Positions 38,478-51,257 of a DNA stretch of 64,000 nt are shown here, one piece after another (positions within the stretch are counted from its first letter, which is position 1; every line of letters starts with the position of its first letter). Under the pieces are notes generated by a model. The model ran no database searches. It had not been told where the DNA came from and saw only the letters and a list, made by a program, of their open reading frames with translations. A program made the position numbers and the translations under genes. This DNA comes from Bacillota bacterium (GTDB lineage: Bacteria > Bacillota > Clostridia > Lachnospirales > Bianqueaceae): positions 1 through 64,000 of the forward strand of contig JAFRZL010000028.1 in assembly GCA_017442535.1 (NCBI GenBank), in the 5' to 3' direction.

Positions 38478-38541
38478 TTTCAGCAAACAAGGGGCTGCCG
38501 GTTTGTACAAGTTCAAACCGGCAGCCCCTTGCTTGCTGAAA
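38478..38541. repeat. 28-bp long inverted repeat (giant hairpin)
   Basis: Two arms pair over 28 bp with one mismatch around an 8-nt loop (38506-38513). The inner 18 bp are perfect: 38488-38505 with 38514-38531. Confidence 0.85.
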
Positions 38542-38569
38542 CACCCGTGGGCCGTTGGCCCAGGGGTGT
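38541..38569. repeat. second hairpin of the array
   Basis: ACACCC/GGGTGT and GGGCC/GGCCC stems separated by a 2-nt internal loop, with a 3-nt loop (GTT). Confidence 0.75.
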
Positions 38570-38629
38570 CTGGCTGTTATTAGTTGTTTGGGTTTGGTCC
38601 GCGCACTCGGGCCTTTTGCTGCAAAGCAA

Positions 38630-47295: not shown

Positions 47296-49065
47296 TTAAG
47301 ATTGTTCAAACTGGCTGTTATAGAGTTCCGCGTAGAAACCGCCCGCCGCGAGCAGCTCCTCATGCCGTCCCTGCTCGACGATATGTCCGTCGCGCATGAC
47401 CAGGATCACATCCGCGCCCTGGATCGTGGAGAGCCTGTGCGCAACGATAAAGCTCGTGCGTCCCTGCATCAGCCGCTCAAAGGCTTTTTGGATCCGGATC
47501 TCGGTGCGCGTGTCGATCGAAGACGTCGCTTCGTCCAGGATCAGCATCGGCGGCAGGCAGAGCATCACGCGTGTAATGCAGAGCAGCTGTTTCTGCCCCT
47601 GCGACAGGCCTCCTCCGTCTTCGGTGATCAGGGTGTCATACCCTTGCGGCAGACGCCGGATAAAGCTGTGCGCATGCGATGCCTTGGCGGCTGCGATGAT
47701 CTGCTCGTCCGTCGCATCGGGCATGCCCATCCGGATATTGTCACGGATCGTACCGGTCTTGAGCCAGGTCTCCTGCAGCACCATGCCGTAGTGAGCACGC
47801 AGGCTCGACCGTGTGATGCCGCGGATATCGTGCAGTGTCCCGTCCGCCGCGCTTCCCACGCGGACGGCTCCTCCCTGTACATCGTAAAAACGCATCAGAA
47901 GGTTGATCAAAGTGGTTTTGCCGCAGCCGGTTGGCCCGACGATCGCGATCCGCTGCCCCTGCTGCGTGCTCAGATTAAAATGCTCGATCAGCTGCCGTTC
48001 CGGCACATAGGAGAAGCTGACGTCCTCCAGATTCACTCTGCCGTCAGCCCCGGTAAGCTCCGGCAGCCCGGCGTCGGATACCTCGGGCTCCTCTTCGATC
48101 AGCTCGAAAATTCGTCCCGCACAGGCAAGCGCGTTCTGCAGCTCGGTAATCACTCCGCTGATTTCGTTAAAAGGCTTGGTATACTGGTTTGCATAGCTCA
48201 GGAAGCTGGTCAGCTGCCCCACACTGATGCCGCCGTGAATGGCTGTGATCGCGCCGGACAGCGCAACACCGGCATAGACCAGACTATTGACAAAACGCGT
48301 CGCCGGATTGGTGATCGAGGAGAAAAAGATCGCTTTCAGCGAAGTCGCTCTGAGCCGCTCATTCACCTCGTCAAAGCGCGCCTGCGCCCTCTCCTGATAA
48401 CCGAACGCCTTGACCGCCTTCTGGCTGCCGATCATTTCGTCGATCAGGCCCGTCTGCTCGCCCCGGATCTCGGACTGTGCGCGGAACATATTATATGTCC
48501 GCCTCGCGATAAATCTCGCGACCAGGAGAGAAACTGGCGTGATCAGTACAACGACCAGGGTGATCCAGCCGTTCATCCTGAGCATGAAGAAAAGTGTCCC
48601 GACAATGGTCAGCACGCCGGTGAAAAACTGGGTGAAGCCCATCAGCAGGCCGTCCGCAAACTGATCCACATCGGCTATTACGCGTGAGACCACCTCACCA
48701 TAAGCATGCTGATCGATGTATTTCAGCGGCAGAGTCTCGATCCGCCGGATGGCTTCCTGACGGATATCCCGGACTGTCAGATAAGTGATCCGGTTATTGC
48801 AGACATTCATGATCCACTGGGCAAGTGCGGTCAGGCCGATGATGATCCCCATGCGCAGCAAGAGCGCGGCCAGTGTCTCGAATTGCACTTTGCCGGGAGC
48901 TACGATCAGATCCACCGCCCGTCCGATCTGAATCGGCAGATACAATGTCAGTACGACCGTCGCCGCCGCGAAAAGGATGGAAGCGGCCACATAAGCCCAA
49001 TAGGGCTTGATATAATGCAGAATCCTGCGGATCGTTCCGGTGCCCTGAGTATGTTTTTCAGCCAT
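47296..49065 (-). CDS. ABC exporter, membrane-ATPase half-transporter 2
   Basis: A 589-aa half-transporter of the type IV exporter fold: six spans in the first 330 residues, then an ATPase domain with Walker A GPTGCGKTTLI, signature LSQGQKQLLC (an LSxGQ variant: normally LSGGQ), Walker B LILDEATSSID and H-loop AHRL. It starts within the last 8 nt of the other half. The degenerate signature GGGLSQGQK is common in one chain of heterodimeric BmrCD/LmrCD-type drug or peptide exporters. Likely heterodimer with the upstream gene. Confidence 0.93.
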   Translation of the reverse strand: MAEKHTQGTGTIRRILHYIKPYWAYVAASILFAAATVVLTLYLPIQIGRAVDLIVAPGKVQFETLAALLLRMGIIIGLTALAQWIMNVCNNRITYLTVRDIRQEAIRRIETLPLKYIDQHAYGEVVSRVIADVDQFADGLLMGFTQFFTGVLTIVGTLFFMLRMNGWITLVVVLITPVSLLVARFIARRTYNMFRAQSEIRGEQTGLIDEMIGSQKAVKAFGYQERAQARFDEVNERLRATSLKAIFFSSITNPATRFVNSLVYAGVALSGAITAIHGGISVGQLTSFLSYANQYTKPFNEISGVITELQNALACAGRIFELIEEEPEVSDAGLPELTGADGRVNLEDVSFSYVPERQLIEHFNLSTQQGQRIAIVGPTGCGKTTLINLLMRFYDVQGGAVRVGSAADGTLHDIRGITRSSLRAHYGMVLQETWLKTGTIRDNIRMGMPDATDEQIIAAAKASHAHSFIRRLPQGYDTLITEDGGGLSQGQKQLLCITRVMLCLPPMLILDEATSSIDTRTEIRIQKAFERLMQGRTSFIVAHRLSTIQGADVILVMRDGHIVEQGRHEELLAAGGFYAELYNSQFEQS

Positions 49066-50794
49066 TGGAGGGCACCTCCTTCGGAAACTGCGAATAGTAG
49101 ATTTCCTGATAAACAGAGCAATTCTCCATCAGTTCCTCATGGCGGCCGATCCCGACGATCTCACCGTCGTCCAGAACGACGATCCGGTCAGCATGTCTGA
49201 TCGAAGCGGTCCGCTGCGATACGATCAGGACCGTCACGGATGGATCCATCCGCCGGATCGACTGTCTGAGCTTCGCGTCTGTCGCATAGTCAAGCGCGGA
49301 AGCACTGTCATCCAGAATCAGGATGCCGGGATGCCCTACGAGTGCTCTGGCAATGGTGAGGCGCTGCCGCTGCCCGCCGGACAGATTGCGGCCGTTCTGC
49401 GATACCGCGGCCTGCAGCCCGCCTTCCCTGCTCTCGACAAATTCTGCCGCCTGCGCCACCCGGAGCGCTTCCCACATTTCTTCCTCGGTTGCGTCTTCCT
49501 TGCGGAAACGCAGATTATCCGCGACCGTCCCCTGGAAAAGCTCTGCTTTTTGGGGCACGATGCCGATCCGGCTGCGAAGCTCCTGCTCGGGGTATTCGCG
49601 TACGTCACGGCCATCCAGCATGACCCGTCCGCTCGTGACGTCATAGAAGCGCGGGATCAGATTGACCAGACTGGATTTACCGGAACCTGTGCCCCCGATG
49701 ATACCGATCGTCTCCCCCTTGCGGATCTTAAGATCGATCCCCGTGAGAGCCTCGGCCCCGGCCTCATGATAGGCGAGCCCGGCGTTTTCAAAAGAAATCA
49801 TGCTGTCGGACTCTACCGCTTCCCCGCTCAGGGCGTCCGGATAAGTCATCCCCGGTTGGATATCAAAGACCGCCTGTACACGATTACCGCAGGCCACGGC
49901 CTTGGTCACCGTAATAATCAGATTGGCGAGCTTGACCAGCTCCACCAGGATCTGCGACATATAGTTGATCAGTGCGACGACCTGTCCCTGCGTCAGAACG
50001 CCTCCTTCGACCTTCCATGCGCCGGTCCATATCAGGATCAGAATCGCTGCATTGATAATCACATAGGTCAGTGGATTCATCAACGCCGAAATCCGGCCGA
50101 CGTACAGCTGCAGCCCTGTCAGCTTCCCGTGTTCCTCATCAAAAGCATGGATTTCATCCTGCTCTTTATTAAAGGCACGGATAACCCGCACGCCGTTCAG
50201 ATTCTCACGCGTGCGCAGCAGCACCCGGTCGAGCCCTGCCTGCACCTTTTTGTACAGTGGCATGCTGATCAGCATGATGCCGAAGACAACGGCCGAAAGC
50301 ACCGGGATGGCCACCACAAAAATCAGCGCGGCCTGCGTATCGATTGTAAACGCCATAATCATCGCGCCGAAAACGATGAACGGCGACCTGAGGAAAAGCC
50401 TCAGCACCAGATTGATGCCGTTCTGCACCTGATTCATATCACTCGTGAGGCGCGTAATCAGCGTCGAAGTCCCGAGTGTATCGAGCTCCGTATACGAAAG
50501 CGACTGAATATGCCTGAAAAGTGCTGACTTGACCTTGGCCGTAAAGCCTACCGCCGCCCTGGCAGCAAAATACTGGGCCGTCAGCGAACAGACCAGCCCC
50601 ACCGCGGCAAAAGCCGCCAGAATCAATACCATGCGGATCACAAGCGGCGTATCATGATTCACGATCCCGACATCAATGATCCGGCTGACAACCAGCGGAA
50701 CCAGCAGTTCAAAGCTGGCCTCCAGCATTTTGAAAAGAGGCGCCAGGATACTTTCCTTGCGATAATCCCTAAGATACTTCAGCAGTCGGTTCAT
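49058..50794 (-). CDS. ABC exporter, membrane-ATPase half-transporter 1
   Basis: A 578-aa half-transporter. Six membrane spans precede the ATPase domain with Walker A GGTGSGKSSLV, signature LSGGQRQRLTIA and Walker B ILILDDSASALD, in which the catalytic Glu is replaced by Asp, a hallmark of the degenerate site in heterodimeric exporters; H-loop is replaced by SQR (IVSQRTAS). ATG at 50794 behind GGGGAG; the longer frame (50836) has no ribosome site. Together with the next gene it probably exports drugs, lipids or peptides. Promoter and palindrome lie at 50902-50930. Confidence 0.93.
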   Translation of the reverse strand: MNRLLKYLRDYRKESILAPLFKMLEASFELLVPLVVSRIIDVGIVNHDTPLVIRMVLILAAFAAVGLVCSLTAQYFAARAAVGFTAKVKSALFRHIQSLSYTELDTLGTSTLITRLTSDMNQVQNGINLVLRLFLRSPFIVFGAMIMAFTIDTQAALIFVVAIPVLSAVVFGIMLISMPLYKKVQAGLDRVLLRTRENLNGVRVIRAFNKEQDEIHAFDEEHGKLTGLQLYVGRISALMNPLTYVIINAAILILIWTGAWKVEGGVLTQGQVVALINYMSQILVELVKLANLIITVTKAVACGNRVQAVFDIQPGMTYPDALSGEAVESDSMISFENAGLAYHEAGAEALTGIDLKIRKGETIGIIGGTGSGKSSLVNLIPRFYDVTSGRVMLDGRDVREYPEQELRSRIGIVPQKAELFQGTVADNLRFRKEDATEEEMWEALRVAQAAEFVESREGGLQAAVSQNGRNLSGGQRQRLTIARALVGHPGILILDDSASALDYATDAKLRQSIRRMDPSVTVLIVSQRTASIRHADRIVVLDDGEIVGIGRHEELMENCSVYQEIYYSQFPKEVPSNG

Positions 50795-50901
50795 TTTATT
50801 CTCCCCATCTGCATACCAAAACAAAACCAAGCCCACGCATGAGCCGTTTTGTCTTCTATTAGTTTACCATATTCAGGGCCTCTGGTAAAGACCCTTTTTG
50901 T

Positions 50902-50930
50902 ATTATACCACAAAACATTGTGGTTGTGAA
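50902..50930 (-). promoter_or_regulatory. promoter of the ABC exporter operon
   Basis: TTCACA (50925-50930), 17-nt spacer and TATAAT (50902-50907) on the minus strand, 108 bp before the ATG. Confidence 0.78.
50907..50924. promoter_or_regulatory. palindromic operator inside the exporter promoter
   Basis: ACCACAA/TTGTGGT with a 4-nt centre fills the -35/-10 spacer; a further ACCACAA half-site lies at 50939-50945. No regulator gene adjoins it. Confidence 0.6.
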
Positions 50931-50948: not shown

Positions 50949-51025
50949 AAGCCCTTGGGTCCCACTTTTGCTACGGCAGGTTGCGCATTGCGCAAATGCC
51001 TGCGCAAAAGGGGGCCCAAGGGCTT
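50949..51025. repeat. giant hairpin H1
   Basis: 77 nt. Outer stem of 22 bp (AAGCCCTTGGG/CCCAAGGGCTT, then CCC/GGG and CTTTTGC/GCAAAAG, with one bulge), middle stem GCAGG/CCTGC, and apical stem TTGCGC/GCGCAA with a 3-nt loop. Shares its core with H2. Confidence 0.85.
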
Positions 51026-51181
51026 AGCATGTTTGTGAGGGCTGTATGAGCAAGAAATGAGGGCTGTCGGTATCGAGAGGAAGCGACTATTCGCAGGTGA
51101 TGCCGGGGACGGAAACCATGCCTTCCCCTTTCCACTCCGGCAGCCATTACTTACAGAAAACCATAAACATCACAACCAGCA

Positions 51182-51257
51182 ACGCCCCCGGGCCTCCTTT
51201 TGCGGAACTGTTTGCGCAATGCGCAACCAGTGAAGCAAAAGCGGGGACCGGGGGCGT
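51182..51257. repeat. giant hairpin H2, related to H1
   Basis: 76 nt. Outer stem ACGCCCCCGG/CCGGGGGCGT, then TTTTGC/GCAAAA, middle stem ACTG/CAGT and apical TTGCGC/GCGCAA. It begins 3 bp after the stop of the SUF-like scaffold gene, so it could also end that transcript, though no U-tract follows. Orientation is opposite to H1 judged by the loop. Confidence 0.85.

Follow-up and report, generated by a model that had tools for sequence, protein, structure and literature searches.

A dispersed, lineage-specific family of long hairpins with a constant apex and variable arms, likely marking gene 3' ends in a lineage of Bacillota

The window, the whole stretch of 64,000 nucleotides analysed here, contains two long hairpins, H1 and H2, between a gene for a SufB/D core protein and a gene for an ABC exporter. 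The locus is composed as follows.

49058 to 50836, minus strand: ABC exporter gene, the left neighbour, downstream of the hairpin pair
50902 to 50930, minus strand: strong promoter-like site TTCACA-17-TATAAT, its second hexamer preceded by TG, in the interval from the ABC gene to H1
50949 to 51025, plus strand: H1, hairpin of 77 nt with a type I apex, probable orphan copy
50981 to 50995, plus strand: H1 apex, TTGCGC-ATT-GCGCAA
51026 to 51040, plus strand: H1 3' tail, AGCATGTTTGTGAGG
51167 to 51181, minus strand: H2 3' tail, TTGCTGGTTGTGATG
51182 to 51257, minus strand: H2, hairpin of 76 nt with a type I apex
51212 to 51226, minus strand: H2 apex, TTGCGC-ATT-GCGCAA
51261 to 52187, minus strand: SufB/D core protein gene in the SufD position (PF01458, 8.5e-18), its 3' end adjoining H2

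Folding yielded for each of the two a single long interrupted hairpin. The stability exceeded that of all 200 shuffled sequences on either strand, with z-scores of -7.5 (plus) and -6.4 (minus) for H1 and of -7.6 (plus) and -5.5 (minus) for H2. The two hairpins match each other as inverted repeats (78% over 55 nt) and are separated by 156 bp (51026-51181); coordinates, spacing and opposite orientation had been given exactly by the initial annotation. Its description of the stems was borne out as well: TTTTGC/GCAAAA and TTGCGC/GCGCAA are identical in both hairpins, while the outer and middle arms differ in sequence and keep their pairing. The apex is asymmetric, with GG preceding the apical stem and A or AT following it, hence H1 is read on the plus strand, H2 on the minus strand, and the two converge. 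Covariance-model scores were 97.5 bits on the plus and 50.1 bits on the minus strand for H1, and 81.7 bits on the minus and 53.7 bits on the plus strand for H2. H2 starts 3 nt past the SufB/D stop codon. H1 is located upstream of the promoter-like site of the ABC gene, and a long plus-strand gene ending beside it was not found, just one frame of 26 codons. As no same-strand gene adjoins it, H1 is probably an orphan copy that lost its gene. The upstream flank of another copy, C41:65035, resembles the sequence beside a neighbouring copy, which suggests that orphans such as H1 could come from duplication and decay. H1 and H2 had no Rfam match at the gathering score, only sub-threshold matches to miRNA families, and a tRNA was the sole Rfam match over the window. 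The loops of other strong hairpins in the window are simple. At 38481-38570 lies a very strong ordinary hairpin with an 18-bp GC-rich stem and a simple loop, followed by a second hairpin.

The initial annotation had offered a repeat family as one reading of H1 and H2, with paired changes that keep the structure. Two of the approaches it proposed, a pattern search of the genome and a covariance model, found further copies, and these occur in the window genome (G000) as well as in relatives, which answers its reservation that other copies might be lacking in both. Covariance models were built from 7 copies (R1) and from 21 copies (R2); in G000 they revealed 13 strong copies and one weaker copy, H1 and H2 included. 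The pattern search with the apex gave further places in G000 that fold into the same architecture with other arms. Outside G000, two copies were present in G002, one in G001 and seven in G012, a member of another genus. With stricter order-level filters, 4 of 295 genomes of the order scored at E <= 0.001. Weak R1 matches in four genomes of other genera (G003, G010, G016 and G018) were dropped, as these were by look ordinary or unrelated hairpins. A GTDB-wide pattern scan for GGTTGCGCNNNGCGCAAATA returned 34 stretches, but a hairpin was present only in contig JAFRUE010000012.1 of a metagenome-assembled genome from goat omasum, where the pair is the same as that on contig 11 of G002; the other stretches were without paired arms. 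The type I hairpins are 70-90 nt long with stems of at least 20 bp. Their consensus comprises a 5' arm, a short variable middle helix, GG, YTGCGC and a loop of 2-5 nt, followed by GCGCAR, A, the middle helix, the 3' arm and a moderately U-rich tail near TTTGCTTGTTGTGA. Across the copies the apex GGYTGCGC-n-GCGCARA is constant, and it is retained where the arms differ completely. This includes G012, where the arms form near-perfect helices of 19-25 bp with unrelated sequence and most copies carry CCTGG/AACGT under the apex. Within some subgroups the identity reaches 90%, as for C37/C41a.

A sister family, type II, became apparent at the aldolase gene that precedes copy C6b in G000: its orthologues in the congeners G001 and G002 are followed by equally long hairpins with the apex GTTGC-TNRC-GCAAAGG. 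Apex search and a covariance model (R3) located about ten type II copies in G002, about eight in G001 and none in G000 (loci L213-L220, L226 and L227 in G001/G002); R3 matches in other families of the order were weak. The type II arms are near-perfect and 20-30 bp long. In several G001/G002 copies additional outer helices reach as far as the final codons and stop codon of the gene or include them, e.g., on contig 16 of G002 and on its contig 4 at 762 kb. Genus g3 (G004, G011, G014) has giant hairpins with a third apex, approximately GCAGC-TTNG-GCTGC (L221, L222, L224).

Most copies begin right after a stop codon with the apex in the mRNA sense. With the orientation assigned from the apex alone, 36 of 40 copies (19 of 23 for type I, 17 of 17 for type II) had an open frame of 100 codons or more on the same strand that ended next to the stem, and one copy had an opposite-strand frame alone; the sign test for 36 versus 1 gave 5.5e-10, an indicative number, since genes are represented by open frames and the G001/G002 copies include orthologues. 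The 36 copies thus have the sense-oriented stable hairpin downstream of a gene that is expected of a terminator; H2 is among them, H1 is not. H1, C49 and C41:65035 have no same-strand gene alongside, and G012d follows an opposite-strand gene. C15 is likewise situated behind a stop codon, allowing for a duplicated arm. Convergent gene pairs bear one hairpin apiece. The host genes are housekeeping genes (SufB/D, aldolase, YfbR, thiamine transporter). Since the apex polarity tracks the mRNA, a role at the RNA level is favoured. A U-rich tract after the stem is clear in G002a/b, G001a, C37, C50 and C41:63092 and weak in H1, H2 (GUUGCUGGUUGUG in H2) and many type I copies; the mean was 4.6 T in the 12 nt past the stem as folded.

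Comparison of orthologous loci revealed a turnover of the hairpins. After SufB/D, such a hairpin is absent from G001 and G002, where the next gene is close behind, and the SufD orthologues in G015, G017, G008 and G013 are followed at the same place by ordinary hairpins (terminators). YfbR is followed by copy C41a in G000 and in congeners by a small GC hairpin only. A permease gene is followed by an apex hairpin in G001 and G002, divergent in G001, and by an ordinary T-run terminator in G000; thus apex hairpins and ordinary terminators replace each other. The 5' arms of four orthologous G001/G002 hairpins are 57-66% identical with the pairing kept, whereas shuffled 5' arms reached a mean identity of 46-51% and maxima of 63-68%. 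The coding DNA upstream of these hairpins is 78-94% identical, an approximate range because the windows were aligned without codon trimming.

On their own, H1 and H2 are weak evidence for covariation; together with 19 further copies the evidence is strong. In the 21-copy alignment both sides had changed in 23 of 26 pairs, the near-invariant pairs being the apical ones, and 76.6% of the cells pair compared to 65.5% in shuffles. The covariation score of 0.350 (0.179 shuffled) was reached by none of 500 shuffles and by no slid register; the alignment was made by sequence and not fitted to the structure, and, owing to the relatedness of the copies, the shuffle count does not equal a probability. 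In an alignment of seven type II copies, both partners had changed in 19 of 29 pairs, and the score was 0.542 versus 0.168. The paired changes inferred earlier from H1 and H2 are hereby confirmed; the selection on structure deduced from them does not follow from covariation alone. Perfect RNA stems can be generated and repaired in single events by replication template switching (PMC8794818), which yields the same pattern; therefore covariation is not a proof of selection on each pair. A mutational origin, in which template switching at quasi-palindromes copies one arm from the other, is a serious possibility, though we hold it to be somewhat improbable as the source of the covariation; part of the covariation may come from template switching. 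Paired change would then say little on selection for the arms. Besides being documented for RNA stems, template switching fits the orthologous arms that were replaced and still pair, an exact 37-bp tandem duplication of the 5' arm in copy C15 (L046:3073-3146), which is a sign of slippage at the hairpin, and two nearby copies of apex and 3' arm after the aldolase gene of G001. It leaves the conservation of the apex, the position after stop codons and the polarity unexplained, and the arms hold a set composition. Template switching is compatible with the reading preferred below. That paired change can stem from mutation bias rather than from selection counts against this reading.

In our reading, H1 and H2 are members of a dispersed family, particular to the lineage, of RNA hairpins that probably mark the 3' ends of genes and serve as intrinsic terminators and exonuclease barriers. 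The weak U-tract of many type I copies counts against this reading, as do the copies H1, C49, C41:65035 and G012d with their deviating gene surroundings. Judged from sequence, the hairpin directly behind the stop codon would be transcribed in the mRNA sense, terminate transcription and protect the 3' end from exonucleases. The long arms would be constrained mainly for pairing and composition and hence change fast, possibly aided by template switching during replication, and the short apex with its unpaired GG and A flanks would be constrained in sequence as a folding nucleus or binding site. A more speculative extension, to which we give limited credence, regards the apex as a candidate site for a dedicated RNA-binding factor, particular to the lineage, by which mRNA 3' ends would be marked or protected; the type I, type II and third apices would then form a code per lineage, with arms free to vary if paired. 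Should such a factor bind the apex, gut Bacillota would have a novel type of mRNA 3'-end mark. The family shows that rewriting of both arms need not alter the lineage-specific tip of a gene-end hairpin, and sequence-based repeat searches would miss families whose arms share so little sequence. Between close relatives, selection versus template switching in stem evolution becomes directly testable.

Known repeat systems present partial analogies. REP and BIME sequences are species-specific extragenic palindromes, mostly downstream of genes and often in pairs of opposite orientation; REPs measure 20-40 bp with tagged ends (GTAG or CGTC), and the GTAG ones are linked to RAYTs (PMC3733652). We consider it unlikely that the hairpins are REP/MITE-like mobile palindromes, copied around the genome as DNA hairpins by a transposase in trans, with insertion after genes being tolerated and terminator function a secondary matter. 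The species-specific occurrence downstream of genes and the recurrence of close, oppositely oriented pairs resemble REPs, the loci are not conserved between congeners, and the distribution is patchy: 13 strong copies in G000, two in G002, one in G001, seven in G012 and, in the strict order-level search, none in the other genomes of the taxonomic family. However, the hairpins are 70-90 nt long, their polarity follows the mRNA, and the arms vary with compensation in place of a shared REP-style stem, the apex alone being near-invariant. By eye, no tetranucleotide tag of the GTAG/CGTC type was common to the stem feet in the aligned copies. The search for the RAYT Y1 transposase (PF01797) had no matches in G000, an assembly about 80% complete, and was positive in control genomes. 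BLAST against phages and plasmids gave no match; of the viral pattern scans, one had a chance match and one none. The REP-like character proposed in the initial annotation consequently holds for location and pairing habit, not for the transposase, of which the incomplete assembly contained no match, nor for the stem, most of which is not conserved.

Ordinary intrinsic terminators, sharing an apex through recent common descent of a few copies, are a still less probable explanation. Most copies occupy the terminator position past stop codons, as the alternative named earlier requires, the tails are T-rich in several copies, and subgroups such as C37/C41a are in line with recent descent. Neither the conserved apex nor the length of the arms is ordinary, however: the apex survives in copies with wholly different arms, even in the other genus of G012, the other strong hairpins of the window have simple loops, and model matches are confined to four genomes. 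EFAR elements of enterococci are long palindromic repeats near stop codons, proposed as bidirectional terminators, and their copies have a sequence in common. They resemble our family in position and in the proposed termination and would be set apart by this shared sequence. EFAR elements are listed among the bacterial MITEs (PMC3733652). Repeated stem-loops beside genes are a general class in bacterial genomes, and the families described began from sequence clustering (PMC2267715), an approach likely to overlook arms that have no sequence in common. The Rho-independent terminators of Neisseria and Pasteurellaceae that contain uptake signals likewise carry a repeated conserved sequence inside gene 3'-end hairpins, but there the shared sequence forms the stem, is present in about 1,000 or more copies and acts in DNA uptake (PMC1852404), while here the apex is shared, the stem varies and there are about 13 copies. 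A DNA uptake signal was rejected, the copies being too few.

Very improbable is a role as DNA hairpin or cruciform for an enzyme that acts on DNA (recombination, target of a diversity-generating retroelement, chromosome site): the apex is a near-perfect palindrome and retroelement target genes end in hairpins whose stem tolerates change and whose GRNA loop is conserved (PMC3240598), but the 7-10 bp GC stem and GRNA loop of such targets were not found in these hairpins with stems of at least 20 bp and the apex YTGCGC-n-GCGCAR, the host genes are housekeeping genes, and the apex polarity tracks transcription.

Two other kinds of repeat were encountered. Arrays of the 16-bp palindrome CTATGCACGTGCATAG with a period of 32 bp lie near copy C41a and the weak match C17 (L045:2650-2961, about 10 copies; L053:3176-3585, about 13 copies). 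A hairpin-bearing repeat starting with GGACAAAACGTGTTGGTAAAAACCCGCTGG is located near the ends of the G000 contigs C11, C14, C16, C18, C26 and C44 (L055:54-112, L056:3212-3270) and is probably a point where the assembly breaks.
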